A stretch of 64,000 bases of DNA. Origin: Maribacter sp. HTCC2170 (GTDB lineage: Bacteria; Bacteroidota; Bacteroidia; Flavobacteriales; Flavobacteriaceae). Positions 32,144-63,970 of this stretch are shown here, one piece after another (the first letter of the stretch is position 1; the number at the start of each line of letters is the position of its first letter). The DNA lies in contig NC_014472.1 in the NCBI RefSeq assembly GCF_000153165.2, positions 1,051,501 to 1,115,500 of the forward strand, written 5' to 3'. Position numbers and translations under genes: made by a program. Under the pieces are notes generated by a model, which saw only the letters and a program-made list of their open reading frames with translations, was not told where the DNA came from and searched no databases.

Positions 32144-32186
32144 TAAAATTATTGGAACGCTTTCACGGAAACTATGACTTATATCA
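32144..32186 (-). promoter_or_regulatory. Fnr-type site plus minus-7 box for usp
   Basis: TGATATAAGTCA on the minus strand (32186-32175), then exactly 23 nt, then TAATTTTA (32151-32144), matching TAnnTTTG at 7 of 8 positions. The usp ATG follows 22 bp downstream. The same layout recurs at five other sites in this window. Confidence 0.7.
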
Positions 32187-32268
32187 GTTTTTGAATTTTA
32201 GTAAAACGCTATAATATATGGTAATTGAGAATAAAGTCAGACTAAGTTGCAATACGAAAGTTAGTAGT

Positions 32269-32970
32269 TTAAAAACCTTCTATAAGATCTTGGAGCATTT
32301 TTTCATCGATCACACCAATTTTTTTACCAGAGGTTTTAATCATGCCTTTTTTCTTGAATTCAGAAATTATGCGAATAGCAGACTCAGTAGCAGTACCAAC
32401 AACATTGGCAATATCCTCTCGGGAAAGGGTTAAATTCAAAAATCCTTGATTATCCTCTCCATAATTGCTCCTTAAATAAAGAAAAGCTTCAGCAATTCGT
32501 TGCTTCACGGTTTTTTGTGACATGTTCACAATAACATCATCAGCTTCTTTAAGATCATGCGCCATATGACGCAATACTTCCACCGCAAAATCAGGATTTT
32601 GATTTAAGGTATGAACAATACTATCCTTTGGAATAAAACAAACCTCCATGTCACTTACTGCAACTGCACTTAGATTGGTAGACTCCTCAGCAATTACGGA
32701 GCGTTGCCCCATTACCTCACCTTTACTGGCCAGTTTAACAATCTGATCTTTCCCATTTGCACTCAATTTAGAGAGTTTTGACACCCCGTCCCGAACACAG
32801 AACACACCATCAAGTTTGTCGCCTTCTTCAAATAGGGCTTCTCCTTTTTTTACTTTTTTGGTAATTTTAGAATCTGATACTTTTTTCAATTCCGTTTTAC
32901 TCATTGCTCGCAAAGAATTGAATTGTCGAATAATACAATTCTCACATCTAGATTGTTCTCCCTGCTCCAT
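32269..32970 (-). CDS. Crp/Fnr-family regulator (Fnr-like)
   Basis: A 233-residue protein with a cyclic-nucleotide-binding-like domain and a C-terminal winged helix (TLSREDIANVVGTATESAIRIISEFKKKG, about 181-209). Cys9, Cys12 and Cys111 align, at a constant offset of 11, with E. coli FNR cluster ligands Cys20, Cys23 and Cys122. The position of Cys29 is Asn18, and an extra Cys58 is present. In the recognition helix Glu196 and Arg200 match FNR Glu209 and Arg213, consistent with TGA/TCA half-site recognition. It is divergent from ccoI across a Fnr-type palindrome and is the best candidate for the activator acting throughout this region. Confidence 0.88.
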   Translation of the reverse strand: MEQGEQSRCENCIIRQFNSLRAMSKTELKKVSDSKITKKVKKGEALFEEGDKLDGVFCVRDGVSKLSKLSANGKDQIVKLASKGEVMGQRSVIAEESTNLSAVAVSDMEVCFIPKDSIVHTLNQNPDFAVEVLRHMAHDLKEADDVIVNMSQKTVKQRIAEAFLYLRSNYGEDNQGFLNLTLSREDIANVVGTATESAIRIISEFKKKGMIKTSGKKIGVIDEKMLQDLIEGF

Positions 32971-33021
32971 ATGGTATTTAATTAATGCTCACTGAATAAT
33001 TCAATAAAAATATCGAAAAGA

Positions 33022-33064
33022 TGACAAATATCATATATATCTTTGGCAAAGTTACAAATATTTG
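33022..33064 (+). promoter_or_regulatory. Fnr-type site plus minus-7 box for ccoI
   Basis: TGACAAATATCA (33022-33033), exactly 23 nt, then AATATTTG (33057-33064), 7 of 8 to TAnnTTTG. The ccoI ATG is at 33087. The site is equidistant from the divergent fnr-like ATG (52 bp), but in that direction the base 23 nt away does not start a convincing box, so autoregulation is less certain. A second TATCTTTG box at 33038 is also present. Confidence 0.7.
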
Positions 33065-33086
33065 CGGCAGGTATAAGTAAATGTAA

Positions 33087-35462
33087 ATGGATAAAGTCAA
33101 CTGTTATCATTGTGGTGACGATTGTGGCAATAGACCTATTGAACATGATGGGCGAAATTTCTGTTGCAATGGCTGCAAAACAGTTTATGATATTTTTTCA
33201 TCAAATGACCTTTCCTATTACTATGATTTACAGTCTTTCGCAGGAGCTACCCCGACCGCCGTTGAGGGTAAGTATGACTTCCTGAAAGAAAATACTATTG
33301 TTGAGAGGCTATTAGAGTTTAAGGAGGATAAACTAAATATTGTAAATCTGTACATACCTCATATTCATTGTAGTTCTTGTATTTGGATTTTGGAAAACCT
33401 GAACAAATTAAATGCCGCGATAAGCAGTTCACAAGTAGATTTTCCTAAAAAGACAGTTCGTATCGTATTTAATCCCGAAGTATTAGACTTGAAAGGGTTG
33501 GTGATTCTTTTGGCAAGAATCGGTTATGAACCTTACATTTCCCTTGACGATTATGACAAGGGTGCTAAAGAAGTAAATCGCAGTTTAATCTATAAATTAG
33601 GTGTTGCAGGATTTGCTTTCGGAAATGTCATGTTCTTATCATTTCCTGAGTATTTCGAGGTAAATGAATTCTGGTTAGAACAATATAAAGGGGTTTTTAG
33701 ATGGCTAATGTTCATTTTCTCTTTACCTGTTGTATTCTATGCAGGTCAAGATTATCTTATTTCTGCATATAAAAGCGTAAGGACTGGAATTTTAAATATT
33801 GATGTACCCATTTCTTTAGGCATCTTGGTATTGTTTATCAGGAGCACCCTTGAAATTATCTTTGATTGGGGCACTGGTTTTTTCGATAGCCTAACGGGGT
33901 TAATATTTTTTCTTTTGCTGGGAAAATTCTTCCAGCAAAAAACATATTCATTTTTATCATTCGAACGTGATTACAAGTCATACTTTCCAATTGCCATTAC
34001 TCGCATAAATACGGAGCATAACGAAGAAACTGCCCAGGTCTATGACATTAAAAAAGGGGATAGATTACTGATTCGCAATGAAGAGTTGATTCCTGTAGAT
34101 GGCATATTGATCAATGGCAGAGCTCAAATCGATTATAGTTTTGTTACGGGTGAATCTGAGCCTGTTTTTAAGGAATCTGGAGACAAAATATATGCTGGCG
34201 GCAAACAACTTGATGGTGCGATTGAAATGGATGTCCTCAAAACAGTTTCACAAAGTTATCTAACCCAATTATGGAGTAATACGGTTTTTGAAGACGATAG
34301 ATCAAGTAGATTTCAAACACTAACCGACAGTATTGGCAAAAGATTCACATTGGCCGTTTTAACCATTGCTTTTGTTTCAACAGCACTTTGGCTTTACATT
34401 GACAGTAGCATGGCAATGAATGTATTTACTGCGGTATTGATTATTGCATGCCCTTGTGCCATTGCTCTGGCAGCACCTTTTACATTAGGCAACATGTTAC
34501 GGATTTTCGGATGTAAAAAATTCTACTTAAAAGATACCCAGACTATTGAACAACTGGCCCAAATTGATACTGCTATTTTTGACAAAACCGGCACCATTAC
34601 CACAACCCAAAAAAGCAGTGCAACTTATGAAGGGATGCGACTTACGTTAGAGGAAGAATCCTTATTAAAAAACACATTAAGAGCCTCGAACCATCCATTA
34701 AGTCGTACTCTATACGATATGTTGGCGACCCATAATATAGTACCCCTTGATGATTATCATGAACATTTGGGAAAGGGCTTGGAAGGTAAAAAAGATGACG
34801 ATCATATTAAGGTAGGTTCCGCCGAATTTGTAGGCAACAAAACTGATATTGATTCTCAAAAGACATCTGTCCACATAAGTAACAATGATAACTACAAAGG
34901 CCGTTTCGTATTCCACAATCACTACCGTAAAGGCCTAAAGGAAGTATTTAGTAAATTGGATACCGAATTTCATTTAGCCATATTATCCGGGGATAATGAA
35001 GGTGAAAAAAACCGATTGGAAAAAATAATACCGAAGCTCACCCCCATGTATTTCAATCAAAAACCCGATGATAAGCTGAGTTTCATAAAAACGTTACAAG
35101 AACAGGGTAAAAAAGTGATGATGGTAGGTGATGGGTTAAATGACGCAGGAGCATTGGCACAAAGTAATGTAGGCATAGCCATATCAGAAAACGTGAATGT
35201 CTTTTCACCCGCCTGTGATGGCATTCTCGATGCATCAAAGTTTAAACAATTATACGATTACATCAATGCTTCCAAAAAGGCGATGAAAATTATTAAGTTA
35301 AGTTTTTTACTATCATTTTTATATAATGTAATTGGTTTGTATTTTGCGGTTACGGGACAGTTAGAGCCTGTAATTGCAGCAATTTTAATGCCCTTAAGTT
35401 CTATAAGTGTGGTTGGGTTCACTACTTTTGCAACAAACCTATTGGGGAAAAAATTAAAATAG
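33087..35462 (+). CDS. ccoI: Copper-transporting P-type ATPase for cbb3 assembly (CcoI/FixI)
   Basis: A 791-residue P1B-type ATPase. The N-terminus has a Cys-rich region (CYHCGDDCGNRPIEHDG, then FCCNGCKTVYDIF) typical of FixI and a heavy-metal domain HIHCSSCIWILE. It has about eight transmembrane helices, the CPC ion site in IIACPCAIALAAPF, the phosphorylated Asp in FDKTGTITT, and MVGDGLNDAGAL. It exports copper needed for cbb3 oxidase assembly. It is the first gene of the cluster, under its own Fnr-type promoter, and is followed 73 bp later by ccoS with a second Fnr-type site between. Confidence 0.94.
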   Translation: MDKVNCYHCGDDCGNRPIEHDGRNFCCNGCKTVYDIFSSNDLSYYYDLQSFAGATPTAVEGKYDFLKENTIVERLLEFKEDKLNIVNLYIPHIHCSSCIWILENLNKLNAAISSSQVDFPKKTVRIVFNPEVLDLKGLVILLARIGYEPYISLDDYDKGAKEVNRSLIYKLGVAGFAFGNVMFLSFPEYFEVNEFWLEQYKGVFRWLMFIFSLPVVFYAGQDYLISAYKSVRTGILNIDVPISLGILVLFIRSTLEIIFDWGTGFFDSLTGLIFFLLLGKFFQQKTYSFLSFERDYKSYFPIAITRINTEHNEETAQVYDIKKGDRLLIRNEELIPVDGILINGRAQIDYSFVTGESEPVFKESGDKIYAGGKQLDGAIEMDVLKTVSQSYLTQLWSNTVFEDDRSSRFQTLTDSIGKRFTLAVLTIAFVSTALWLYIDSSMAMNVFTAVLIIACPCAIALAAPFTLGNMLRIFGCKKFYLKDTQTIEQLAQIDTAIFDKTGTITTTQKSSATYEGMRLTLEEESLLKNTLRASNHPLSRTLYDMLATHNIVPLDDYHEHLGKGLEGKKDDDHIKVGSAEFVGNKTDIDSQKTSVHISNNDNYKGRFVFHNHYRKGLKEVFSKLDTEFHLAILSGDNEGEKNRLEKIIPKLTPMYFNQKPDDKLSFIKTLQEQGKKVMMVGDGLNDAGALAQSNVGIAISENVNVFSPACDGILDASKFKQLYDYINASKKAMKIIKLSFLLSFLYNVIGLYFAVTGQLEPVIAAILMPLSSISVVGFTTFATNLLGKKLK

Positions 35463-35472
35463 TTTTAAAAAC

Positions 35473-35515
35473 TGACAAAAGTCATTTTATGTACTTTTTC
35501 AGCAATGTAGTTTTA
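35473..35515 (+). promoter_or_regulatory. Fnr-type site plus minus-7 box for ccoS-NO-Q-P operon
   Basis: TGACAAAAGTCA (35473-35484), exactly 23 nt, then TAGTTTTA (35508-35515), 7 of 8 to TAnnTTTG. The ccoS ATG is at 35536. This gives the oxidase structural genes an internal promoter separate from ccoI. Confidence 0.72.
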
Positions 35516-35535
35516 CGGCGAAATTCAGGTAAGGT

Positions 35536-35766
35536 ATGAGTGTCATATATGTGTTATTGACTATTAGCATCATTGTTGCTATAATCTTTTTCACTGCGTT
35601 TATTATTTCTGTCAGGAGTGGGCAGTACGATGATTCGTATACCCCTTCTGTGCGCATGCTGTTTGAAGATGAGTTGGTAAAACCCAGCAGTTCTTTAGAC
35701 AATGATAGTACAACTGAGAAATTTGAAAATAAATCAATCCAACTAAATAAAAGTCAAAAATTGTAA
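35536..35766 (+). CDS. ccoS: cbb3 oxidase maturation protein CcoS
   Basis: A 76-residue single-span membrane protein: MSVIYVLLTISIIVAIIFFTAFIISVRSGQYDDSYTPSVRMLFEDE. The hydrophobic helix followed by SGQYDD and a short acidic tail is diagnostic for CcoS, which is needed for cofactor insertion into the cbb3 oxidase. The tail is somewhat longer than in Proteobacteria (30 polar residues). It starts 51 bp after the Fnr-type palindrome and ends 2 bp before ccoNO. Confidence 0.9.
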   Translation: MSVIYVLLTISIIVAIIFFTAFIISVRSGQYDDSYTPSVRMLFEDELVKPSSSLDNDSTTEKFENKSIQLNKSQKL

Positions 35767-35768
35767 TT

Positions 35769-43519: not shown

Positions 43520-44746
43520 TCAAGATTCTTTTTTCCGAAATCTAAGTGCTCCTGTTTCAATTTTAATCGCTGTTTTTGCAAGCATTGTGAACACAAAAGC
43601 TCCTAGAGCCCAAATACCCAATGTTACGCCAATCTCAATTCCCGTGGGTGTATATTCTGCAATTTTTCCATAAGGTCCTGGAATAAAACCAGGAACAATC
43701 AAACCAAACCCTTTTTCAATCCATATGGCCACAAATAAAATAAAGCAAGCAAAATATAGTATTTTCGAGTTATTGCGAAGTTTATGGAATGTCAGGATTA
43801 CGGTTGCCAGAACATTTAAGGAAATGGATGTCCATATCCAAGGCAATAAAGCTGTTTTACCATCCAATCCAAAGAAAAGATAATAGGCACTTTCACTATG
43901 ATGTGTTGGTGCATAAAATTCTTTGAAAAGTTCAGAAATCAACATTATTAAATTTATTTGGGCCGCCACCGTAACTACCATGGCAATTTTTCTCAAGGTT
44001 TTGTTCTTGATTTTGAACGCAGTAAAAGTTCGTATAACAGCCAACACTAAAATTATCAGAGCTGGGCCGGCTGCGAATGCAGAAGCCAAAAAACGTGGTC
44101 CAAGAAGTGCATTGTTCCAAAATGGGCGAGCCTGTAATCCCTGATAAAGGAATGCCGTCACCAAATGAATTGCCACCGCCCAAAAAACAGATAAAAGAGC
44201 TCCGGGAATATAAACTTTTGAATTTGACTTTTTCCCTTGGTAATGTTTGAACAATATGTAAAATGGAATACTGATATTCAAAAATAGATAACCATTTAGT
44301 ACCAGCACATCCCAGGTGAGCATTGAGTTAGGAAAATTAAAGACTCCTATCCCAGGTATCATATGCCACAATACGGAAGGTCCTCCCATATCTGCAACCA
44401 CAAAGGCCAAACACATAATGAGTGCGGCAACCGCTATTCCTTCTCCTATAAGTACGGCCTGCTTAAAATCAATATCTTTTAAGACATAGGTAGGCATTAC
44501 CAACATAACGGCCGCAGCGGCCACTCCAACCAAAAATGTAAAATTAGAAATATAGAGACCCCAACTAACTCTATCGGTCATCCCAGTAACACTTAAACCC
44601 TGATCCAATTGAACGGAATAACAATACATTCCGACCAACATAACAAAAGTTAAAAAAGCCATCCAGATATGGTATTTTTTAGAACCATGGGTAATGACAT
44701 CCAAACTGTCTTTAACTAAACTACCAAAAACTCTAAGTCGACTCAT
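43520..44746 (-). CDS. NrfD/PsrC-family quinol-binding membrane subunit
   Basis: A 408-residue integral membrane protein with about ten helices and NrfD features: MTDRVSWGLYISNFTFLVGVAAAAVML, GPSVLWHMIPGIGVFNFPNSMLTWDVLVLNGYLFLN, and LLGPRFLASAFAAGPALI. It would oxidise menaquinol and pass electrons to the NrfC-like iron-sulfur protein encoded just upstream. It is the last gene of the nap operon, 35 bp after the ferredoxin gene. It stands in for NapC or NapGH, neither of which is present. The name NrfD is by family only; no nrfA is seen. Confidence 0.88.
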   Translation of the reverse strand: MSRLRVFGSLVKDSLDVITHGSKKYHIWMAFLTFVMLVGMYCYSVQLDQGLSVTGMTDRVSWGLYISNFTFLVGVAAAAVMLVMPTYVLKDIDFKQAVLIGEGIAVAALIMCLAFVVADMGGPSVLWHMIPGIGVFNFPNSMLTWDVLVLNGYLFLNISIPFYILFKHYQGKKSNSKVYIPGALLSVFWAVAIHLVTAFLYQGLQARPFWNNALLGPRFLASAFAAGPALIILVLAVIRTFTAFKIKNKTLRKIAMVVTVAAQINLIMLISELFKEFYAPTHHSESAYYLFFGLDGKTALLPWIWTSISLNVLATVILTFHKLRNNSKILYFACFILFVAIWIEKGFGLIVPGFIPGPYGKIAEYTPTGIEIGVTLGIWALGAFVFTMLAKTAIKIETGALRFRKKES

Positions 44747-44781
44747 TCTATATTTTGTTACCTCTTACTGTTTAATCGCTT

Positions 44782-45903
44782 TTAATCCATGAAATACCAG
44801 AACTTTGGTTCTGTTCCCAAATCTTCTTTAAGCCTAAATACTTTTTTATTCTCAAGTACCCATCTTATTGTACTATTTGGGTCTAACAGATTTCCAAAAA
44901 TACGTGCTCCGGTAGGACATGCATCTACACAGGCTGGATTTTGACCTGCTCTGGAACGCTGGACACAAAAAGTACATTTTTCCATCACCCCTTTTTTACG
45001 CATCCGATTACCTAAGTAATGCTGGTTCTTGTTCACTTCTTCCTCAGGCACTTCCGGTCTGCTCCAATTAAAACGCCGACCATCATAGGGACAAGCTGCC
45101 ATACAGTAGCGACAACCTACACACCAATCATAATCAATAACCACCAAGCCGTCGTCCTCTCGCCAAGTTGCTTGTACGGGGCAAACATCTACACAGGGAG
45201 GGTTGTCACAATGAAAACATTGTGTGCCCATATAAAAATGGCCTTCTGCAGGAACCTCATGATAATAATTATCATCCGCTTCATTAAAATTAAAGCCCTT
45301 TCCATCTTTCATTTCATGAATACGGATGTATTCCATTTGTGAGCTTCTATCTTGGTTGTTTTCTTCAACACAGGCACTCACACAATCCATATACCCCTGG
45401 CATTTAGAGATGTTGAAAGCATACCCAAAAAGCACATCTTCTTCTGCATTCTGGGAGGACATACTTATTGTTTTTCCTGTGCGCAACTGGTACGAACGAA
45501 CCAATCTCTCAACCGTTGATCCCTTCTCCTCATCGGACATTAATTTATAGTTGCCCTTAAATTGTTCTTCCCAATCTATTTGAGCTTTTTCCTTGGTTTC
45601 CTCCCCTGCAATCATACTACATGATGTAGAAACCGCTCCAGCACCTATCATTAAACTAGCCGTAAGTTTTTTAAAAGCCGACCTTCTATCCATTTTTACA
45701 TCAAAGACTTGCTCAAAACCATCTTTAGTTCTCTCTTCCCCAATAGAAGCATCAACCGCCGCTTGCAAGAATTTTTCTTCGTTCATTGGCTCTTGATGGC
45801 TATTACAAGTACCTGAGGTTTTTCCACATCCACAAGAACCTGGTGATTCCTTTTTTGTGCCACCGAGGTTTAGTGAAAACCATTTTTTATTATTATCGTT
45901 CAT
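44782..45903 (-). CDS. NrfC/DmsB-type four-cluster ferredoxin subunit
   Basis: A 373-residue protein with a Cys-rich N-terminus (CGCGKTSGTC), a Tat-like motif DRRSAFKKLTASLMIGAG (about 71-88) followed by a potential lipidation Cys, and four 4Fe-4S groups: CQGYMDCVSACVEEN, CFHCDNPPCVDVCP, CVGCRYCMAACPYDG and CTFCVQRSRAGQNPACVDACP. It links the NrfD-like quinol site to the periplasmic cytochromes. The Tat motif is internal, not N-terminal, which is typical of this subfamily in Bacteroidetes respiratory complexes. It lies 38 bp after the tetrahaem cytochrome gene. Confidence 0.87.
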   Translation of the reverse strand: MNDNNKKWFSLNLGGTKKESPGSCGCGKTSGTCNSHQEPMNEEKFLQAAVDASIGEERTKDGFEQVFDVKMDRRSAFKKLTASLMIGAGAVSTSCSMIAGEETKEKAQIDWEEQFKGNYKLMSDEEKGSTVERLVRSYQLRTGKTISMSSQNAEEDVLFGYAFNISKCQGYMDCVSACVEENNQDRSSQMEYIRIHEMKDGKGFNFNEADDNYYHEVPAEGHFYMGTQCFHCDNPPCVDVCPVQATWREDDGLVVIDYDWCVGCRYCMAACPYDGRRFNWSRPEVPEEEVNKNQHYLGNRMRKKGVMEKCTFCVQRSRAGQNPACVDACPTGARIFGNLLDPNSTIRWVLENKKVFRLKEDLGTEPKFWYFMD

Positions 45904-45941
45904 ATCTTTACATTAGTATGATAACCACTTTGGCCTTTTAA

Positions 45942-46571
45942 CTACTTTCTTTCTTTAATTTTTTGAGTGTTGAATCGTGCAGGCCATCTAGACTCAAAAT
46001 GTGGTTTATGAGGGTTATGGCAATTCACGCAGGTCATCGAAACCCTTGGTGGTGCCCATCCTCCAACTTTTTTACCATGTCCGCCCCCTATCCAATCATC
46101 AAATTGTTTGGTATGGCATTGCATACATGTTTGGTAACTTCTATTAAAATCAATGGATGCTCCCGTAAGACTTGCTAGCTCATCCATATTTTTTCCATCA
46201 TGACACGTTATGCAATTCATGGTATTCGAATCGGCATGTGACAAATCAATGTCCCAATGTGCCTTCTTTGCTGTTCCGCTTTGCATTTGTTCCAAAGGTT
46301 TAGAATGGCACTCGGTGCATGCATAGGATTTTATTTGGCTCTTATGTTCTGGTATCAGGAATGTATGGTCATCTTTAGTAACTTCGATAGTTTTTATATC
46401 CATAATATAATCCTCAGAAGAAATTGAGGTTCCGTCATAATCTTTACTTTCAGCCTCTATCTTATCCGTAATGCTATGATACTCTCCTTCTTTATGTTTG
46501 CATGAAGAAAAAGCACCGCTGAAAAGGAATAGGCAACTTAAAATGTATAGTATTTGATACGTGTTCTTCAT
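45942..46571 (-). CDS. Tetrahaem c-type cytochrome lipoprotein of nap operon
   Basis: A 209-residue lipoprotein (lipobox SSC, Cys24) with four CxxCH haem sites at about 85, 120, 149 and 181 (CTECH, CITCH, CMQCH, CVNCH). It contains extra His residues in spacers (AHWDIDLSHAD, GGGHGKKVGG) suitable as distal ligands. The composition resembles the periplasmic-facing domain of NapC/NrfH-type or c3-like cytochromes but lacks the transmembrane anchor. Likely role: electron transfer from the NrfC/NrfD-like pair to NapB. It overlaps the napB stop by 1 bp. Confidence 0.85.
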   Translation of the reverse strand: MKNTYQILYILSCLFLFSGAFSSCKHKEGEYHSITDKIEAESKDYDGTSISSEDYIMDIKTIEVTKDDHTFLIPEHKSQIKSYACTECHSKPLEQMQSGTAKKAHWDIDLSHADSNTMNCITCHDGKNMDELASLTGASIDFNRSYQTCMQCHTKQFDDWIGGGHGKKVGGWAPPRVSMTCVNCHNPHKPHFESRWPARFNTQKIKERK

Positions 46572-47254: not shown

Positions 47255-47256
47255 AG

Positions 47257-49584
47257 CTATGCTTTTTCAATTTTAACAGCACACTTTTTAAAATCGGGCT
47301 CTTTTGAGATTGGACAAAAAGAGTCTAAAGTGACATCGTTGATCATCATATTCTCATCAAAAAATGGAACAAAAACTTGCCCTTTGGTTGGTAATCCTCT
47401 TTCGTTTATTGAAGCAGGTAATACACAAGAACCCCTTCGAGAAACTACCTTTATTTTTTCTCCATTTCTAATGCCCATTGCTCGAGCATCATCGGGGTGG
47501 AATTCAGCATAGGCGCTTGGCATTGCCTTGTGCAGCACGGGAATTCTACGAGTCATTGATCCGGTATGCCAATGTTCAATTACTCGTCCAGTATTTAACC
47601 AGAATGGGTATTCTTCATCAGGGATTTCGGGTGCAGGTTCATATGGACGCTGCCAAATAATGGCCTTACCATCTGGTTTACCGTAAAATTCAAAATCTTC
47701 ACCATTTTTACATGCAGGATCGTATTTGGCGTTGAAACGCCATTGGGTGGATTTGCCCTCTACATAAGGCCAAATTACACCTGATTCCTTTTTAAGTACT
47801 TCTAACGGAGCCATACCATGTTTTGCCCCTTCGTGGAACTGACGGTATTCATTATAAATTTCTTCAACATGGTTCTCTTCACTATAAGGAAACAAATCCC
47901 CATAACCCATTCTTTTAGCAACTTCAATAGTCATCCAGGCATCTGGAGTAGTTTCTCCGGGGCCTTCCACCATTTTATTCCAATGTTGGGTTCTGCGCTC
48001 AGAATTTCCGTATAATCCATCTTTTTCAATATGCCAAGAAGCTGGTAAGATTACATCCGCTACATCCGATGTTGGCGTTGGAAACACATCAGAAACCACA
48101 ACAAAACAGGATTCTTTTTCCATCGCGGGGCGATATCTACTCGTCTTGGGTAAAGAAACCAAAGGGTTTGTGACCTGGGTCCATATAAATTTAATTTCAC
48201 CACGGTCTACCGCCCTAAACATTTCTGTTGTATGGTAGGTCGGTTTTGAAGGAATACGTTCGTAGGGTACTTTCCATATTTTGGCTGCCAAACGACGATG
48301 CTTCTCGTTCATCACCACTCCTTTAGGTAATTTATGTGTAAAAGTCCCTACTTCCCTTGCCGTACCACATGCAGAAGGCTGACCGGTCAATGAAAATGGG
48401 CCATTACCCGGTTGTGAAATTTTACCGGTAAGTAAATGAATATTATATACTAAATTATTCATCCACGTACCTCTAGTGTGTTGATTCATTCCCATGCACC
48501 AATAAGAAACCACTTTCTTATTTGGGTCACCATATATAGCAGCTAAATATTTTATGTCCTTTACGGAAACTTTCGAATACTTCGCGACTTTTTCTGGCGT
48601 GTAGTCTTCTAAAAAATTCTTATACGCTTCAAAATCTATTTTTTCGGGCTTGTCATTAAATTTGAATTTGTCTTCAAGGCCATACCCTATATTAGTAAGT
48701 CCTTTGCTAAAATTACAGTGCTTTTCTACAAACGATTTATTTACCCATCCATTATTAATGATTTCATAGCAAATAGCATTGGCAACAGCCAAATCTGTTT
48801 GAGGCTCAAATAAAATAGACCTATTCGAAACTGTACTTGATCGAGTTGTTCTTGTAGCAAAATCAATGATTTTGGCCCCTCTTCGATTTTTTTGCTCTAA
48901 CATTCTAGAGAATAGTACAGGATGCATTTCGGCCATGTTATTACCCCATGTAATAAAATAGTCAGCATATTCTATATCCTCGTAACAGCCCATGGGCTCA
49001 TCAGCACCAAAAGTGGTTAAAAAACCGGTCACTGCACTGGCCATGCATAAACGAGCATTACAATCCAAGTTATTGGTTCCTATAGCACCCTTCATAAGCT
49101 TTGATGCGACATAACCTTCCGGAATTGTTGACTGTCCAGAGGTATACATGGCGACAGAATCTTTACCATGATTTTCAATGGTCTCCTTCATTTTATCAGC
49201 TACAATATCCAAAGCTTCCCCAATTGGTGTTTTGACATATGTCCCGTTTTTCTTTACCAAGGCATGTGTTAACCTGTCTTTTGCCTGAATACACATGGTC
49301 TGGTGATACCCTTTAACACAAAGTAAACCTTTGTTAACGGCACTATTAGGATCCCCTTTAACCGCCACGGCTTTTCCATGCTCAACGCCGACCAAAATTC
49401 CACAACCAACCCCACAAAAACGACAAGGTCCTTTTTTCCAGTCTAGATTACCTCCTTTTGGAATATTCACTTCCTGCTCAGAAGCGAAAATAATCCCCGG
49501 AAACATAGTAGCTGCAGCCGTCATCGCAGCAGCAGTAGCCATTTTTTTAATAAAACTTCGTCTATTAGTAAGAGAGGTATACAT
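47257..49584 (-). CDS. napA: Periplasmic nitrate reductase catalytic subunit NapA
   Basis: A 775-residue molybdopterin enzyme when started at ATG 49584, 4 bp after the napD stop; an in-frame ATG at 49611 would lie inside napD. It opens with a Tat signal (MYTSLTNRRSFIKKMA), has a 4Fe-4S site of Cys54, Cys57, Cys61 and Cys89 (CRFCGVGC, GLLCVKGYH), the Mo-ligand Cys180 (CNARLCMASAV), and MGMNQHTRGTW and GNGPFSLTGQPSACGT segments. It reduces nitrate to nitrite in the periplasm. Confidence 0.95.
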   Translation of the reverse strand: MYTSLTNRRSFIKKMATAAAMTAAATMFPGIIFASEQEVNIPKGGNLDWKKGPCRFCGVGCGILVGVEHGKAVAVKGDPNSAVNKGLLCVKGYHQTMCIQAKDRLTHALVKKNGTYVKTPIGEALDIVADKMKETIENHGKDSVAMYTSGQSTIPEGYVASKLMKGAIGTNNLDCNARLCMASAVTGFLTTFGADEPMGCYEDIEYADYFITWGNNMAEMHPVLFSRMLEQKNRRGAKIIDFATRTTRSSTVSNRSILFEPQTDLAVANAICYEIINNGWVNKSFVEKHCNFSKGLTNIGYGLEDKFKFNDKPEKIDFEAYKNFLEDYTPEKVAKYSKVSVKDIKYLAAIYGDPNKKVVSYWCMGMNQHTRGTWMNNLVYNIHLLTGKISQPGNGPFSLTGQPSACGTAREVGTFTHKLPKGVVMNEKHRRLAAKIWKVPYERIPSKPTYHTTEMFRAVDRGEIKFIWTQVTNPLVSLPKTSRYRPAMEKESCFVVVSDVFPTPTSDVADVILPASWHIEKDGLYGNSERRTQHWNKMVEGPGETTPDAWMTIEVAKRMGYGDLFPYSEENHVEEIYNEYRQFHEGAKHGMAPLEVLKKESGVIWPYVEGKSTQWRFNAKYDPACKNGEDFEFYGKPDGKAIIWQRPYEPAPEIPDEEYPFWLNTGRVIEHWHTGSMTRRIPVLHKAMPSAYAEFHPDDARAMGIRNGEKIKVVSRRGSCVLPASINERGLPTKGQVFVPFFDENMMINDVTLDSFCPISKEPDFKKCAVKIEKA

Positions 49585-49588
49585 AATG

Positions 49589-49828
49589 TTAATCTTTATT
49601 TGGTGTATCAAATCCTGAAACCATTGCTAGTAGTTTTAAGCTTTGAATGGTCTCGATTTTTTCCTTTAAAATATTTTCTTCTATGTCAGTTTCTGTATCC
49701 GTAATCACAATGAGGAGATTTTCATTTTCAGCAGGAATAACTTCACAGTTCTCCATTAAAGATAACTTGTCATAAAGTTCGCTTTTTTTTCCCTCTTGTG
49801 GATGTGCTAAATAGCTTATTATGGGCAT
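49589..49828 (-). CDS. napD: NapD-like maturation chaperone
   Basis: A 79-residue protein with the NapD ferredoxin-like fold: MPIISYLAHPQEGKKSELYDKL, NCEVIPAENENLLIVITDTE, then LKEKIETIQSLKLLAMVSGFD. NapD binds the Tat signal peptide of NapA and prevents early export. Sequence similarity is low, and identity rests on fold pattern and position 4 bp upstream of napA. It is the first gene of the nap operon, 30 bp from the minus-7 box of a Fnr-type promoter. Confidence 0.8.
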   Translation of the reverse strand: MPIISYLAHPQEGKKSELYDKLSLMENCEVIPAENENLLIVITDTETDIEENILKEKIETIQSLKLLAMVSGFDTPNKD

Positions 49829-49857
49829 ATTATAGTTTTCTATAGATACAAAAAAGA

Positions 49858-49900
49858 TAAAAATATCTTTTTATCCAAATTGGAATCATGACATTTGTCA
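49858..49900 (-). promoter_or_regulatory. Fnr-type site plus minus-7 box for nap operon
   Basis: TGACAAATGTCA on the minus strand (49900-49889), a perfect 5-bp-arm dyad extended by ATGACA/TGTCAT symmetry, exactly 23 nt, then TATTTTTA (49865-49858), 7 of 8 to TAnnTTTG. The napD ATG is 30 bp downstream. Confidence 0.75.
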
Positions 49901-49950
49901 TAAATCAAATTTAAGAAGAACAGCAAGTTTGAGAAGAAACAGTGTCTTGT

Positions 49951-50169: not shown

Positions 50170-51375
50170 CTACTTTTTTATTTTCAAACTGTGTTGTAGT
50201 ATGAATGTCATCCCAAAAAAAATGGCCAAGCTTCCTAGGGCCAGGACTTCAAAATAACCTCCAAAAAGTGATTCTCTTTGCCATGCCATTATTCCCTTGG
50301 CGAAAATCAAGAATTCAGTCAACAAAAAACCTGCCAGGTAAAGGTAGTAAGCCCTTCTTGATATTTTAAGCAATTTAAAATAGTTAAGAAACAATAGCAG
50401 GCCAATTGTAACCACGCCTAAAAAAGTCCAATGCAAATATCCAATGGTAAAATCTGTAATTGTCGCAGCTAAATTGGCAAAATAAGGGAACGCTGTTATA
50501 AGCTGTAGCATAATCTTTATGGTAAATAAAACACCAATTGTCAACAGTAAGTTTCTCTGGAACGAAGAAAGGATCTTAAATAGCCTTTTCCTTATCCTTT
50601 TTACAAAGAGTAACAGAACGGCAAACCCAACTATTTGAAACGTTGCACCAAAGCCTCCGATATAATAAAAGGCCATATGAGGTTCTATCCATAAAGTTGA
50701 AAGAAAAAATGAAAGCAGAATACCTAGATTAGTCCAAAGAAAAAAACGATTAAAAGTTACTTTCGGAATCTCAATTTCATTCTTTTCGAAAACATATACC
50801 AAAATACCAAAAAGCGCAAAAATCATCCAACCATTATATTGAAAATGAAGGTAGAAATAAATGGATAGTCGATACCAAATAGATTCTGCACCCAAAGTGT
50901 TCATTATAACGCCCAAAATCCATGGGCCCAAGCTTGATAAAACCATATACCACAAGGCTAACTTTATACACTTGTACGAATTGGTTTTCTTAAATAAAGA
51001 AGGTGCGTATTTCATGAAAAACCAAGTAAACCAATAAGAAGCAAATAGAAACAGTGTGGAGAAAATGATAGAGTAAAGGGCATATCCCTGAAAAGGAAAA
51101 GTAAGCAACATTCCTACAAGGGTAAGTTGTGTAAACCAAAAGATAAGTTTGTATTTCCCGTCAAGTTCTTGCTTTTCTAGAAATAACTTATATAACAATG
51201 TGGTCAAGCCCATATACACCCATCCCAAAAGCGCGATATGCGAATGTGTATGAACAATAAACTTATAGGTGGCGGGTATTTCAATTGAATGAAAGGATCT
51301 TAGCACCACACCAAGAACAGCAGCTATAATAAAATAGCCCAAGGATAGATTGATATGGCTTTTTAGATTCATCAT
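50170..51375 (-). CDS. Twelve-helix His-rich membrane protein of nos operon, function unknown
   Basis: A 401-residue protein with about twelve hydrophobic helices and conserved-looking intramembrane His residues: FIVHTHSHIALLGWVYMG (about 40-57), YLHFQYNGWMIFALFG (about 175-190) and YLHWTFLGVV (about 312). The H-x-H in an early helix and H-x4-GW in a middle one recall the haem-copper oxidase/NorB superfamily, but the full set of six ligand His is not evident. It is the last gene of the nos operon, 29 bp after nosY. I do not know its function; a haem- or copper-handling role is plausible. Confidence 0.6.
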   Translation of the reverse strand: MMNLKSHINLSLGYFIIAAVLGVVLRSFHSIEIPATYKFIVHTHSHIALLGWVYMGLTTLLYKLFLEKQELDGKYKLIFWFTQLTLVGMLLTFPFQGYALYSIIFSTLFLFASYWFTWFFMKYAPSLFKKTNSYKCIKLALWYMVLSSLGPWILGVIMNTLGAESIWYRLSIYFYLHFQYNGWMIFALFGILVYVFEKNEIEIPKVTFNRFFLWTNLGILLSFFLSTLWIEPHMAFYYIGGFGATFQIVGFAVLLLFVKRIRKRLFKILSSFQRNLLLTIGVLFTIKIMLQLITAFPYFANLAATITDFTIGYLHWTFLGVVTIGLLLFLNYFKLLKISRRAYYLYLAGFLLTEFLIFAKGIMAWQRESLFGGYFEVLALGSLAIFFGMTFILQHSLKIKK

Positions 51376-55632: not shown

Positions 55633-57588
55633 TTATTCACCTAATGACCAAGAAAGGTCAATATTTGAATTAGCAGGAGACACCCTTATATAACCCTGCA
55701 TTTCTTGGTGTAATGCTGAACAAAAATCTGTACAATAGAACGGCCATACACCAACTTGTTTAGGTTCCCAAACAAAAGACTCAGTTTGTCCAGGCATAAT
55801 CAAAAGTTCAGATGTATTGGCCCCAATAACACTTACACCATGGGGAACATCATAATCTTGTTCTAAGTTCGTAACGTGAAAGTAGACCTTGTCACCAACT
55901 TTTACTCCTTCAATATTATCTGGGTTAAAGTGGCTACGAATCATTGTCATATAAATATGCACTTCTTTACCATTACGTACTACCTTAACATCATTATCAT
56001 TGGTAGTGGCATATTCATGCTTATTATCTTCAAGATTGAAGATCTTCTTTGAATTAGCCTTCACAATATCAGCCGCTATACCAGCTGCATAGTGAGGTTC
56101 ACCTATGGTTGGGAAATCTAACAACAACTCCATCTTCTCACCAGTGATATCATAAAGTTGGGCTGATTGAGTTACTTCAGGACCTGTAGGTAAATAACGG
56201 TCTTTAGTTATCTTGTTCATAGCCAAAACGTATTTACCAAAAGGCTTTCTGGAGTTACCTCCAGGAATCATTAAGTGACCTACTGAGTAATATGTTGGCT
56301 TTCTATCAATAACTTCCCATGTACCTAATTTCCACTTAACAACTTCAGAAGAAATAAAGAATGTGGTATACGCATTCCCCTGTCCGTCAAATTCTGTATG
56401 TAAAGGCCCAAGACCTGGTTGACTTACTGTACCAGCAAGAACATCTTCGAACTTCAAAATTGGAATTCCGTATGCTTCTCCATCGAATTTTTCATTTTCT
56501 ATGGCAGATATCATTTTAGTAAATGAATGAACAGTTAAATCGGCAGATAATTTACCATTACCCACAATGTACTCACCAGATGGATCAACATCACAACCGT
56601 GAGGGGATTTAGGAGTAGGCAAGAAATAAACTGCTCCAGGAACTTCGGAGGGATCAACAACCAATACCTCTTTTTTCATAGTAGAAGTAGCAGTATGTGT
56701 ATGCTCGTCATATACGTTATGTGCATAATTTGAAGGCATTTTTTTACCTCCACCATTGTTCACATATTCTTCGATTTTCTTCCAGTTAACAGCAGCGATA
56801 AAATCTTTATCATTCTGAGAGGCATTAACTTCTAACAAAGTATTTGCTTCCTCAGTATTATATGTTGTAAAGAAGAACCATCCGTGAGATGCTCCTCTAC
56901 CAGGGTGAGAAAGATCATAATCAAAACCAGGCATCAACAGCTGGAATTTAATATCCATGCCGCCATCTTCTGGATCTACACTAATGAAAGATAAAGCTCC
57001 TTTAAAGTTTCCTTTATAATCTTTGATAGACATATCTCTTTGAGGAACAGGAACTGAGAAACGAGTACCAGCCACAACATATTCAGTGTTTTCAGTCACA
57101 AAAGAAGAACTGTGATTACCTGCACTATTAGGCACTTCAATGATTTCTGTTGTTTCAAAAGTAGTTAAATCAATTTTTGCAATACGAGGAGTATTGTTAC
57201 CATTGATAAACACGTAACGACCATCTAATTCACCATTTGTTTGAGAAATATCAGGGTGGTGAGAATCATCCCAAGGTACAAAACCATGCGATGTATTCAA
57301 CATTGGCTTTGTTTCCTCATTATAGCCATAAGCTTTTTCAGCATCCTGTGAAAATACAGGAATCACCTTAAATAAACGACCAGATGGAAGTCCATAAACA
57401 GATAACTGTCCACTAAATCCACCAGAGATGAAAGCATAGTACTCATCGTGTTCTCCGGGTGCAACATACACTTTCTCTGCTGCTCCTGAAGATAAAGCAC
57501 CGTTGGTAGTCTTGGCTTTAGGTTGGCAGCTAGTTAACACCATCGCCAGTCCTAAAAAGGCAAGTATTGAATATTTGATTTTTTTCAT
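55633..57588 (-). CDS. nosZ: Nitrous oxide reductase NosZ, clade II type
   Basis: A 651-residue periplasmic copper enzyme that reduces N2O to N2. It has a Sec/lipoprotein signal (MKKIKYSILAFLGLAMVLTSC), not a Tat signal, which is the hallmark of clade II. The seven-bladed propeller with CuZ His ligands includes DDSHHPDISQTNG (about 107) and PKSPHGCDVDPSG; the C-terminal cupredoxin CuA site is WPFYCTDFCSALHQEM (about 609-624). It is third in the operon after cytochrome c and fasciclin genes and followed by a terminator. Confidence 0.96.
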   Translation of the reverse strand: MKKIKYSILAFLGLAMVLTSCQPKAKTTNGALSSGAAEKVYVAPGEHDEYYAFISGGFSGQLSVYGLPSGRLFKVIPVFSQDAEKAYGYNEETKPMLNTSHGFVPWDDSHHPDISQTNGELDGRYVFINGNNTPRIAKIDLTTFETTEIIEVPNSAGNHSSSFVTENTEYVVAGTRFSVPVPQRDMSIKDYKGNFKGALSFISVDPEDGGMDIKFQLLMPGFDYDLSHPGRGASHGWFFFTTYNTEEANTLLEVNASQNDKDFIAAVNWKKIEEYVNNGGGKKMPSNYAHNVYDEHTHTATSTMKKEVLVVDPSEVPGAVYFLPTPKSPHGCDVDPSGEYIVGNGKLSADLTVHSFTKMISAIENEKFDGEAYGIPILKFEDVLAGTVSQPGLGPLHTEFDGQGNAYTTFFISSEVVKWKLGTWEVIDRKPTYYSVGHLMIPGGNSRKPFGKYVLAMNKITKDRYLPTGPEVTQSAQLYDITGEKMELLLDFPTIGEPHYAAGIAADIVKANSKKIFNLEDNKHEYATTNDNDVKVVRNGKEVHIYMTMIRSHFNPDNIEGVKVGDKVYFHVTNLEQDYDVPHGVSVIGANTSELLIMPGQTESFVWEPKQVGVWPFYCTDFCSALHQEMQGYIRVSPANSNIDLSWSLGE

Positions 57589-58213: not shown

Positions 58214-58717
58214 TTATAAGGTTCTAAAATACTCAAGTACAGCCCTTGCATCTTCTTCCGAAAGTCCTTGATTGGCCATTGGCGAACCATTGAACTCCAT
58301 TAACAATTCTTTAGCAAGGGGATCTTCTTGCACCATTTTATCAGGATTAAGAATCATGTTCATTACCCACTCAGGAGTTCTTCTTTCCAAAATACCATCA
58401 GGCGCAGGCCCAATGAATTTTTTTCCAATTCTATGACAAGCTAGGCACATTTGATCATAGACTTCTTTTCCTTTAGCTGCCATGGCATCATCAATGGCAT
58501 CTTCCAATGTTAAAGATGTTACAGGACCAACTCCCTTTGTAGTTAAATCAACTCGCTCAGAAGCTTTAGTCTCAGTAGCTGCCGAAGTTTCTACTTTTTT
58601 CTCTGTAGTTGCTTTTCGTTTTACACTAAAACCCTCCTTTTTCTTTTCTTCTTTACCACCACAACTTACGAGGAGCAGAGAGAAAAGGAGCACAACACTT
58701 TTAAATAATAGTTTCAT
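58214..58717 (-). CDS. Mono-haem cytochrome c lipoprotein of nos operon
   Basis: A 167-residue lipoprotein (lipobox VSCG near residue 19) with a long charged linker (KKEGFSVKRKATTEKK...) and a class I cytochrome c domain, haem site CLACHRIGKKFIGPAP (about 92-96) with a distal Met likely in DKMVQEDP or GSPMANQG. It is the first gene of the nos operon and is the probable electron donor to the CuA site of NosZ. The promoter has a perfect TATTTTTG box and a Fnr-type site. Confidence 0.88.
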   Translation of the reverse strand: MKLLFKSVVLLFSLLLVSCGGKEEKKKEGFSVKRKATTEKKVETSAATETKASERVDLTTKGVGPVTSLTLEDAIDDAMAAKGKEVYDQMCLACHRIGKKFIGPAPDGILERRTPEWVMNMILNPDKMVQEDPLAKELLMEFNGSPMANQGLSEEDARAVLEYFRTL

Positions 58718-58743
58718 TCTGGTATATTTATTGAATTATAGGG

Positions 58744-58786
58744 CAAAAATATGGGCGGCAATTTGCCTAAAATATGATATAAGTCA
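58744..58786 (-). promoter_or_regulatory. Fnr-type site plus minus-7 box for nos operon
   Basis: TGACTTATATCA on the minus strand (58786-58775), exactly 23 nt, then TATTTTTG (58751-58744), 8 of 8 to TAnnTTTG. The nos operon ATG is at 58717. The same palindrome serves the divergent rrf2-like gene. Confidence 0.78.
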
Positions 58787-58794: not shown

Positions 58795-58817
58795 ATAAAA
58801 ATGTCTTTTTAATTTTA
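58775..58817 (+). promoter_or_regulatory. Fnr-type site plus minus-7 box for rrf2-like gene
   Basis: Reading rightward from the shared palindrome (58775-58786), exactly 23 nt, then TAATTTTA (58810-58817), 7 of 8 to TAnnTTTG. The rrf2-like ATG is at 58841. One site with symmetric spacing can therefore serve both directions. Confidence 0.68.
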
Positions 58818-58840
58818 TTTTTTCAAAAAATAATCATTAA

Positions 58841-60731: not shown

Positions 60732-60740
60732 ACCCTAATT

Positions 60741-61619: not shown

Positions 61620-61628
61620 ATAAATGAC

Positions 61629-61658: not shown

Positions 61659-61692
61659 TACTAAACATCAATTTAACATAAATAATTGACAA

Positions 61693-62514
61693 CTAAATCC
61701 TGAATGTTACCACTGGCACATTGGAGTGGTTCGCAATATCTTCACCTATACTGCCCATGAAAAAGTGAGACAAGCCTTTTCGGCCATGCGTAGGTATTCC
61801 AATAATATCGGCACTTATATTTTCACCATAATTAAGTATACCTTTCTCTATATTGTAATCGTTAAAAATCTCAACAGATATTCCTGCTCCGGCCTTACCC
61901 AAGAATTTTGAAATTCTTTCATATGCATCCTTTGTGCTGAGAAAATCATCACCCGGAGTGTTTATATAAACCAATTTCAGTTCGGCGGACAACATTTCTG
62001 CAAACTGCTTTGCCTTCTGGAAAGCTTCAAGACTTTCATCCTTGAATCCACAAGCAAATAAGAAGGTATCAACTTTGAAATCAACATGTTCTTTCTTTAT
62101 TACCAATACCGGTATCTCGGCATTGCGAACAACTCTTTCAGCATTTGAACCAACAAAAATTTCCTTTAAACCGTCGGTGCCATGAGAACCCATGACTATC
62201 ATATCTGCATTGTTCTTTTTAGCAACATCGTTTACTTCGCTAAAAACTTTAAAATGCTTTACTACAGGAGTAATATTTATTCCCTCTAAATAGGTCTTTT
62301 TCAAAAACTTATTAAATCTTTTCTCGGCCAACTTTATCAAGAAAACTGTTTGTTCAGGATGAAAACCTTCTGAAGAAGTAATCATCGCCTGGTTCAATTC
62401 CAACATATGTAGAACCAAAATTTCAGCATTATGCTTTTTTGCCAATGAAGCTGCAACCTGCAAGGCATAATCCGATTGCTCCGAAAAATCAACTGGTACA
62501 ACTATTTTTTTCAT
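61693..62514 (-). CDS. Tandem universal stress protein (UspA family)
   Basis: A 273-residue protein with two Usp domains: MKKIVVPVDFSEQSDYALQVAASLAKKHNAEILVLHML and IVMGSHGTDGLKEIFVGSNAERVVRN in the first, then FLFACGFKDES and IIGIPTHGRKGLSHFFMGSIGEDIANHS in the second. Both domains keep the G-x2-G-x9-G[S/T] nucleotide-binding pattern. It lies 31 bp after hemN and ends just before a strong terminator, so it shares the Fnr-type promoter of hemN. A paralogue is encoded at 31219-32121. Confidence 0.9.
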   Translation of the reverse strand: MKKIVVPVDFSEQSDYALQVAASLAKKHNAEILVLHMLELNQAMITSSEGFHPEQTVFLIKLAEKRFNKFLKKTYLEGINITPVVKHFKVFSEVNDVAKKNNADMIVMGSHGTDGLKEIFVGSNAERVVRNAEIPVLVIKKEHVDFKVDTFLFACGFKDESLEAFQKAKQFAEMLSAELKLVYINTPGDDFLSTKDAYERISKFLGKAGAGISVEIFNDYNIEKGILNYGENISADIIGIPTHGRKGLSHFFMGSIGEDIANHSNVPVVTFRI

Positions 62515-62545
62515 AATGTTTAGTTTTAAAAATTAGTCCAAAAAT

Positions 62546-63907
62546 TCAAATCGTCATCGAGAACAACCTTGTTTCTGGTTCTTTTCGATGTAATAGAACG
62601 TCAAAAGCCATACAAATATTACGTATAAAAGGTTGGCCTTTTGGTGTGACCTTCAATTCATTAAGTCCTATATCTACTAGTCCGTCCAACTCCATTTCAT
62701 GTAATTTGCCCATTACAATTGGTAGTTCTGGAAAACGTTCACCTTCTTTTTCCCAAGAAGTCCTGAAGCGGCACATCAAATTCAATATATGCTGGCGAAT
62801 TTTTTGATCCTCCTTAGTTAAAATATGTCCTCTATAAATAGGAATAACACCATTATCAACTAAATGCTTATACTCCTCAATGCTTTTTACATTTTGGGCA
62901 AAACTGTACCAGCTGTCACTAATACTTGATGCGCCCAAACCTACCATCAATTTTGTTTTAGAGGCTGTATACCCCATAAAGTTCCGGTGTAACTCCCCAG
63001 AAATCATTGACTGGTACAAACTGTCACTTTCCAGCGCAAAATGATCCATGCCTATTTCCTCATAGCCCACTTTTGATAAAAGTTCTTTTCCTTTCTCATA
63101 CTGGATTCTTTTCTCATCGGCAGAAGGCAAATCTTCATCTTTAAAACCACGCTGTCCATTACCTTTTAACCATGGTACATGGGCATAACTATAAAAAGCC
63201 AGACGATCTGGCATTAATGCTTTTGTCTTTAAAATTGTTTCTTCAACATGTTCCAAAGTTTGATGTGGCAGTCCAAAGATTATATCGTGGCCTATTGATT
63301 CATATCCAATTTCTCGAGCGGCCTGAGTTACTTTTTTCACATTTTCAAAAGGCTGAACTCGGTGAATTGATTTTTGCACTTTTTCATTATAATCCTGCAC
63401 CCCATAACTTACTCTTCTAAACCCTACATCGTATAATGTCTGTAGATGTTCTTTTGTCGTATTGTTAGGGTGGCCCTCAAAACTAAATTCATATTCCCTT
63501 GACCTCTCAGCCAATCTAAAAATTCCGTCAATGAGCATCTTTAGGTTTTCAGGAGAGAAAAAAGTGGGAGTACCCCCACCTAAGTGCAACTCTTTTATTA
63601 TGGGCTTTGAGCCAAAAAGATTGCAGTATAATTTCCACTCTTTCAGCAGTGAATCTATATATGGGGTTTCTACTGTATGCTGTTTGGTAATTCGTTTGTG
63701 GCAGCCACAAAATGTACACAAACTCTCACAAAATGGTAGATGTATATAAATACTTATCCCCTCTTTTTCATTGCTTTCATCAAAACTCTTTTTGAGAGAG
63801 GTCTTCCATTTTGCGCCAGAAAATGTTTCCAAATTCCAATAGGGCACAGTAGGGTAACTAGTATATCTAGGACCTGGTATATTATATTTTTGCACTAGGT
63901 TGCTCAT
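62546..63907 (-). CDS. hemN: Oxygen-independent coproporphyrinogen III oxidase
   Basis: A 453-residue radical SAM enzyme when started at ATG 63907 (MSNLVQKYNIPGPRYTSYPT), the standard HemN opening. An in-frame ATG at 63964 would begin inside the promoter. The cluster motif is IYIHLPFCESLCTFCGCHKR; the C-x3-C-x2-C-G-C form separates true HemN from HemW. LGGGTPTFF and the HemN C-terminal domain follow. It makes protoporphyrinogen IX without oxygen, matching the anaerobic genes here. Confidence 0.95.
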   Translation of the reverse strand: MSNLVQKYNIPGPRYTSYPTVPYWNLETFSGAKWKTSLKKSFDESNEKEGISIYIHLPFCESLCTFCGCHKRITKQHTVETPYIDSLLKEWKLYCNLFGSKPIIKELHLGGGTPTFFSPENLKMLIDGIFRLAERSREYEFSFEGHPNNTTKEHLQTLYDVGFRRVSYGVQDYNEKVQKSIHRVQPFENVKKVTQAAREIGYESIGHDIIFGLPHQTLEHVEETILKTKALMPDRLAFYSYAHVPWLKGNGQRGFKDEDLPSADEKRIQYEKGKELLSKVGYEEIGMDHFALESDSLYQSMISGELHRNFMGYTASKTKLMVGLGASSISDSWYSFAQNVKSIEEYKHLVDNGVIPIYRGHILTKEDQKIRQHILNLMCRFRTSWEKEGERFPELPIVMGKLHEMELDGLVDIGLNELKVTPKGQPFIRNICMAFDVLLHRKEPETRLFSMTI

Positions 63908-63927
63908 AGGCACATTTACAATCGTCA

Positions 63928-63970
63928 CAAACATACGACGGCTAAGCCTTGAATAATATGACAATTGTCA
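63928..63970 (-). promoter_or_regulatory. Fnr-type site plus minus-7 box for hemN-usp operon
   Basis: TGACAATTGTCA on the minus strand (63970-63959), a perfect 12-bp palindrome, exactly 23 nt, then TATGTTTG (63935-63928), 8 of 8 to TAnnTTTG. The hemN ATG is at 63907, which supports that start over the upstream one at 63964. Confidence 0.78.

Follow-up and report, generated by a model that had tools for sequence, protein, structure and literature searches.

The window analysed in this work is a 64-kb stretch of the genome of Maribacter sp. HTCC2170, which consists of a single contig of 3.87 Mb. Six palindromic dyads of the pattern TGAY-N4-RTCA lie in this window ahead of genes for a universal stress protein (usp), a ccoI-type ATPase, ccoS, napD-napA, the nos operon and rrf2, and hemN, and the gene for an Fnr-like regulator is located between the first two of them. 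An initial annotation of this DNA had reported these dyads at 32175, 33022, 35473, 49889, 58775 and 63959, and pattern searches located all six at these positions. The dyads, the TAnnTTTG-like promoter boxes that stand 23 nucleotides (nt) away from them (scored on the six specified letters and given with the predicted transcription start, +1), and the genes behind them are listed below by their positions in the window.

32175..32186, minus strand: dyad TGATATAAGTCA (read on this strand), serving usp
32144..32151, minus strand: box TAATTTTA, 5/6, 23 nt from the usp dyad; predicted +1 at 32139
33022..33033, plus strand: dyad TGACAAATATCA, between fnr and ccoI
33057..33064, plus strand: box AATATTTG, 5/6, on the ccoI side; predicted +1 at 33069
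35473..35484, plus strand: dyad TGACAAAAGTCA, ahead of ccoS
35508..35515, plus strand: box TAGTTTTA, 5/6, for ccoS; predicted +1 at 35520
49889..49900, minus strand: dyad TGACAAATGTCA (read on this strand), ahead of napD-napA
49858..49865, minus strand: box TATTTTTA, 5/6, for napD-napA; predicted +1 at 49853
49924..49931, plus strand: box CAAGTTTG, 5/6, on the opposite side of the napD dyad, with no gene downstream
58775..58786, both directions: dyad common to the nos operon (minus) and rrf2 (plus)
58744..58751, minus strand: box TATTTTTG, 6/6, on the nos side; predicted +1 at 58739
58810..58817, plus strand: box TAATTTTA, 5/6, on the rrf2 side; predicted +1 at 58822
63959..63970, minus strand: dyad TGACAATTGTCA, ahead of hemN
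63928..63935, minus strand: box TATGTTTG, 6/6, for hemN; predicted +1 at 63923
31219..32121, minus strand: usp, universal stress protein (PF00582), ATG at 32121
32269..32970, minus strand: Fnr-like regulator of 233 amino acids (aa) with C9, C12, C58 and C111 and the recognition residues E196 and R200 (profile matches)
33087..35462, plus strand: ccoI-type heavy-metal P-type ATPase (profile matches)
35536..35766, plus strand: ccoS (FixS; PF03597)
49589..49828, minus strand: napD-like open reading frame (ORF), weak match (NapD of Pfam, E 0.00098, 19.6 bits, cut-off 28)
47257-49611, minus strand: napA, behind the napD-like ORF (NapA match)
58214-58717, minus strand: cytochrome c gene, ATG at 58717, first in the nos gene run
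55633..57588, minus strand: nosZ, within the gene run that starts with the cytochrome c gene
ATG at 58841, plus strand: rrf2, on the rrf2 side of dyad 58775 (Rrf2 match)
62546..63907, minus strand: hemN, oxygen-independent coproporphyrinogen III oxidase (match scanned on the longer frame 62546-63964)

The genes that had been named as usp, ccoI, ccoS, nos, rrf2 and hemN were confirmed by these matches, whereas for napD only a weak match was obtained. Behind ccoS come a fused ccoNO (35769) and a ccoP-like gene (38158; CcoP match below cut-off), and ccoG is also found there. By profile matches, the nos run is comprised of genes for cytochrome c, a fasciclin protein, NosZ, NosL and NosD. For hemN, the fitting ATG is at 63907, 20 nt past the box; the longer frame, which has a TTG start, would overlap the dyad.

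A TAnnTTTG-like box exactly 23 nt from the dyad was observed in all seven of the directions for which it had been claimed. The score of 7 or 8 of 8 positions that these boxes had been given includes the two free positions, and on the specified letters five of the directions score 5/6 and two 6/6. An eighth direction, the plus strand of dyad 49889, also has a 5/6 box at 23 nt; it faces no gene and this box (CAAGTTTG) is probably due to chance. No box of at least 5/6 was found at spacers of 15 to 32 on either side of the remaining four dyads of the window (7673, 34748, 55157 and 60926), and at dyad 33022 the side facing fnr is without one. At spacer 23, boxes of at least 5/6 are present in 8 of the 19 dyad directions in the window with room for one; for the rest of the spacers between 3 and 59 the count never exceeds 2. 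Such boxes are found at 1.03% of window positions and at 1.64% near five of the dyads, and the binomial probability of 8/19 is 9e-12 by the window-wide rate (5e-10 after multiplication by 57 spacers) and 3e-10 by the higher rate (2e-8 after the same multiplication). The earlier view that the constancy of the spacing argues against chance is upheld by these corrected values, and an excess at the same spacing is also seen in the genome and in the class.

When the genome was searched for exact dyads combined with exact boxes at spacers of 8 to 38, 33 matches were found, of which 16 were at spacer 23 and 17 were spread over the other 30 spacers, with no more than 2 at any one of these; the reversed pattern gave 7 in all. 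With up to one mismatch, the matches at spacer 23 numbered 72 in the genome vs. 9 for the reversed pattern, and 60 of these 72 sites, representing 55 distinct dyads, have an exact dyad with at most one box mismatch. Since only 8 of the 60 fall inside the window, the set, though dense there, is genome-wide, and its description as a local regulon has to be abandoned. Three of the 59 sites examined fall into ORFs that are 150 aa or longer (13 of the 72 being outside the sequence pieces used). Of the 52 exact-dyad sites that lie outside the window, 47 had sequence, and in 43 of these 47 an ORF of at least 70 aa begins with ATG within 400 nt, at a median of 36 nt past the box.

For 40 sites outside the window, 37 of them (out of the 43) with exact and 3 with inexact dyads, the ORF that comes first after the site was scanned against Pfam, and a Pfam family was absent for 5 of the 40. 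The targets at exact dyads include three universal stress proteins, Hsp20 and an S30AE ribosome-associated protein, as well as two pyruvate:ferredoxin-type oxidoreductases, a ferredoxin, pyruvate-phosphate dikinase, PPK2, DeoC, a cytochrome c, a flavin reductase, a sulfite-oxidase-like molybdoenzyme and a molybdopterin oxidoreductase. Alongside these are two rhodanese proteins, a CBS protein, two DoxX-type proteins, of which one is below cut-off, and a pyridine-nucleotide-disulphide-type oxidoreductase that matches flavocytochrome c sulfide dehydrogenase weakly. Less obvious members are TonB, an MlaE permease, a two-component-propeller-type protein, a FadL-type channel, a glyoxalase, PepSY and DUF families. 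The ORFs at the inexact dyads are those for RseC at 2573904, an EF-G-like GTPase at 2852512 and a Crp paralogue at 2876031. Judged by these family assignments, the gene content fits what a low-oxygen set would be expected to hold.

The same spacing is also enriched in the class (Bacteroidia, judging by the names of the relatives), of which 149 genomes were surveyed. The exact composite with spacer 23 gave 533 matches in 121 of these genomes compared with 16 for the reversed control. The spacers 24-26 and 20-22 total 267 and 207 matches, respectively (474 together; reversed controls 59 + 59), or a mean of 79 per spacer, over which spacer 23 is enriched about sevenfold. Equal numbers of composite hits in shuffled genomes had been named at the outset as the result that would count against the motif; the controls employed here, the reversed pattern and other spacers in place of shuffling, are far lower in both the genome and the class. 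An Fnr-like protein (scored as present at E <=1e-10) was found in 124 of the 149 genomes, which contain a mean of 4.19 composites, and the 25 genomes without it contain 0.56 (P = 6e-10, phylogenetically uncorrected), a value near the 0.53 per genome that the neighbouring spacers average.

The loci of relatives were compared in 80 fetched sequences with an Fnr-like protein, which are the best 80 of 569, are mostly from Flavobacteriaceae genera and have as their nearest member a Maribacter with 94% identity. Within these best 80 loci, a box of at least 5/6 stands at spacer 23 in 297 of the 606 dyad directions, and at spacers 22 and 24 in 4 each; elsewhere between spacers 5 and 45 the counts run from 1 to 12, apart from those at 9 (25) and 45 (47). 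The peak at spacer 45 was rejected as a promoter signal, as 39 of the 47 directions are also boxed at 23 and 4 of the 6 rows printed show TAGGTATG at the apparent ccoS start codon. The count at spacer 9 comes, in the six rows printed, from T-rich DNA in Maribacter, on the side of fnr. Upstream of fnr, a dyad was found in 69 of the 80 loci; it is flanked by two boxes in 51 of these and by a single one, away from fnr, in 14, and the remaining 4 are boxless. The window belongs with the 14, its box being on the side away from fnr, i.e., that of ccoI, and the fnr-side box seen in 51 of the 69 loci is missing from it. In the box away from fnr, T at -12 is found in 0/69 (C 54, G 9, A 6), and the A at -11 is constant. 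A boxed dyad is also found past the fnr orthologue in the loci of relatives, as at the usp dyad 32175, where the gene in those loci is unannotated. At the sites upstream of fnr (65 and 51 boxed on the two sides), the spacer letters carry 0.02-0.59 bits from the ninth base onward and up to 2.0 in the first eight; thus beyond the eighth base it is the length and not the sequence that is conserved. As the sites were picked by dyad pattern and box, the bits of these two elements do not constitute independent evidence, which is provided by the variable spacer letters.

Class II activators of the Crp/FNR type in Escherichia coli act from a site centred at -41.5, where the dyad takes the place of the -35 element, with 23 nt between its 12-bp core and the T at -12. 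The composite sites resemble these promoters in the 23-nt distance, would share the centre and the place of the dyad if transcription starts where predicted, and differ from them in that the box is the Bacteroidota TAnnTTTG/A, in contrast to TATAAT in E. coli. The fixed spacing to the -10/-7 element that marks class II is found in the window, in the genome, in the 80 loci and in the class. At the 60 exact-dyad sites, position -5 holds G 33 times, A 26 times and C once, and T stands at -35 in 51. As only a T bias (29-31 of the 60) and no conserved G is seen at -33 to -30, these promoters appear to have no strong -33 element that could replace an activator. The box itself is like that of the sigma-A promoters of Flavobacterium psychrophilum, for which mapped starts place TAnnTTTG at -12 to -5 (PMC9723704). 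Because of this position and the 23-nt spacer, the dyad would span -47 to -36 and its centre would be at -41.5, and the initial annotation, which put the site centre near -41.5, agrees with these predicted starts. The same report describes a strong induction of the F. psychrophilum cbb3 oxidase under oxygen limitation, and its main text contains no occurrence of "Fnr", "Crp" or "palindrom" (PMC9723704).

On this basis we consider it highly likely that the composite (A/C)TGAY-N4-RTCA(T) - 23 nt - TAnnTTT(G/A) represents, in the Bacteroidota, a promoter of the class II activator type. At such a promoter, a dimer of the Crp/Fnr family would bind the dyad at -41.5, adjoining RNA polymerase, and would stand in for the -33 element, and sigma-A would recognise the TAnnTTTG box at -12 to -5. 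The promoters so controlled would form a genome-wide set, including those for the cbb3 oxidase, N-oxide reduction, HemN, oxidoreductases of the pyruvate:ferredoxin type, pyruvate-phosphate dikinase, universal stress proteins, Hsp20, the S30AE protein and sulfur-metabolism-like genes. The likeliest activator at the sites in the window is the Fnr-like protein encoded at 32269-32970, presumably acting under low oxygen.

The Fnr-like protein has the domain layout of the Crp/Fnr family, with a cNMP-binding-type domain and a Crp-type helix-turn-helix (HTH). Its residues C9, C12, C58 and C111 are invariant in 30/30 proteins, viz. that of the window and 29 class homologues which are 35 to 52% identical (those among the best matches that came as loci), and the same pattern fits all 80 fetched loci. 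The recognition-helix residues E196 and R200 are likewise kept in 30/30. In E. coli numbering, the cluster cysteines of FNR are 20, 23, 29 and 122. When the protein was aligned with the FNR structure 9qlt, C9, C12 and C111 fell on cysteines, and N18 was opposite the third N-terminal cysteine; position 18 is S in 26 of the 30 proteins, and position 21 is Cys in 17 of 30 and R in the window protein. In comparison with the structures filed in the PDB as "FNR type regulator" (5cvr, 5e44 and 9qlt, which we take to be from Aliivibrio fischeri), the protein is alike in its domains, in three of the four cluster cysteines and in the E and R of the helix, and it is unlike them in having N18 at the C29 position, the invariant C58, and I where FNR has Ser in the helix. 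The cysteine set of the Bacteroidota Fnr-like proteins thus may reflect an altered cluster ligation. The NCBIfam model for Fnr is matched with 105.8 bits, below its cut-off of 228, and an AlphaFold model is poor (mean pLDDT 59.2, pTM 0.41, 30 close sequences) and gives no basis for placing C58 among the cysteines. From its sequence features, the protein is Fnr-like and is not filed as FNR. The operator of FNR is TTGAT-N4-ATCAA; at the sites found here the core TGAY-N4-RTCA is kept, and the outer base, at -48, was readable at 55 sites and is A or C at 52 of them (30 and 22, respectively), G at 2 and T at 1. The Fnr-like protein is the favoured candidate for binding these dyads.

A number of observations weigh against the promoter model or against the part that the Fnr-like protein is given in it. 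No Cys is present at the position of E. coli C29, and for this reason oxygen sensing by a canonical cluster is not a given. At the fnr-ccoI position, the dyad is missing from 11 of the best 80 loci, and 4 of the 69 that are present lack a box. The six neighbouring spacers of the class survey (mean 79) exceed the reversed controls (118 in total, about 20 each), so that part of the class signal represents a general co-occurrence of dyad and box in upstream DNA or a looser spacing, and the correlation of composite counts with regulator genes ignores phylogeny. In addition, the genome contains five genes with a Crp-type HTH above the Pfam cut-off, and two of these share the recognition-helix E and R of FNR: that for the Fnr-like protein of the window, and one at 3494097-3495146 for a receiver-CNB-HTH fusion, in which a response-regulator receiver is joined to a Crp-type sensor and an HTH with Fnr-like recognition residues. 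Three Crp paralogues (2859961, 2875366 and 3609906), with TSRVxVxR helices and no glutamate, are less likely binders, and a weak Crp-type match at 1774371 looks on inspection of its sequence to be GntR-type. It is a serious prospect, with chances somewhat short of even, that a different protein of the Crp/Fnr family, chiefly this fusion, binds all or some of the dyads, and that a phosphorelay acts instead of or besides oxygen. This proposal overlaps with the class II reading, as the two share the promoter geometry, and the odds assigned to them are not exclusive. The helix of the fusion, GMATETLIR, has the same E and R as the Fnr-like protein, its gene sits among composite sites at 3492758, 3494027 and 3496485, and its presence tracks the motif across the 149 genomes. 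With the fusion scored as present at E <=1e-60 (74 of 149 genomes) and a strong Fnr match at E <=1e-40, a cut-off of our own set after seeing the matches, the mean number of composites is 7.17 where a strong Fnr and the fusion occur together (29 genomes), 3.68 with a strong Fnr only (31), 3.60 with the fusion and a weaker Fnr (45), 1.84 with a weaker match only (19) and 0.56 with neither (25). These near-additive counts suggest that both kinds of regulator read one code, although phylogeny could give the same pattern. However, strong-Fnr genomes without the fusion keep an excess of composites (P = 6e-9 vs. neither), and 69 of the 80 loci keep the dyad beside fnr, 51 of them with a box on each side, as is expected of an fnr-linked circuit. 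The initial assignment of the gene at 32269 as the regulator is therefore favoured, but the certainty with which it was made is unsupported, as the receiver-Crp fusion also tracks the motif.

Two other readings concern the sites themselves. A site that touches the polymerase region can also repress, and boxes of 5/6 or 6/6 might serve sigma-A unaided, and it could be argued that the protein at -41.5 is a repressor or merely aids a promoter that works alone. We regard this as improbable, because a distance fixed to one nucleotide in the genome and the 80 loci is unneeded for repression, and the lack of a conserved G at -33 to -30 seems to leave no strong -33 element. Still less credence, and practically none, is given to the possibility that the spacing arose by chance or by common ancestry of AT-rich upstream DNA. 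The orthologous loci are indeed not independent, and the class counts at neighbouring spacers suggest that dyad and box may each prefer intergenic DNA; however, the same distance recurs across unrelated operons of one genome, the spacer sequences vary while their length is kept, the reversed and neighbouring-spacer controls are much lower, and the spacing spectrum already contradicts such an origin. We thus regard the class II promoter architecture as real and strongly supported: the geometry described in the initial annotation was right, its scope was too narrow and its regulator was assigned too firmly.

Among known systems of the Bacteroidota, HcpR of Bacteroides and Porphyromonas belongs to the Crp family, and the hcp promoter of one Bacteroidota species carries a recognition sequence for it; it is unlike the present case in being a heme-binding regulator of nitrosative stress (PMC13370916). 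No description of the 23-nt spacing was found in the open-licence PMC literature, subscription papers and regulon databases being outside this search.

Some neighbouring genes of the window also deserve mention. In the region 43520-49828, five ORFs examined with NCBIfam include NapA beside a DsrP-like membrane subunit and a DsrO-like Fe-S subunit (just under cut-off), together with two further ORFs with weak multihaem cytochrome matches. NapB, NapG and NapH had no match above cut-off in the NCBIfam rows shown for these five ORFs, and this neighbourhood of NapA is perhaps another quinol-oxidising module. In the nos region, the sole match of a 401-aa protein (50170-51375, minus strand) is a weak one to COX1, under the cut-off at E 0.0019, and NCBIfam gave none.

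The promoters of the Bacteroidota depart from the textbook type, and the action of activators on them is little described in the literature searched. A spacing rule exact to one nucleotide would permit low-oxygen and denitrification promoters and their starts to be predicted phylum-wide, in bacteria of the sea as well as of the gut, and it yields start sites and mutants that are directly testable. This work also brings out a subfamily of Fnr-like proteins whose cysteine set is altered, and it points to a second regulator that possibly acts on the same code. Tentatively, and with the odds rather against it, the Bacteroidota may share a rigid code, (A/C)TGAY-N4-RTCA-N23-TAnnTTTR, that is read both by the Fnr-like protein, with a putative C9/C12/C58/C111 cluster, and by the receiver-Crp response regulator. 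If this is true, redox and phosphorelay signals would converge on the same promoters across the class.

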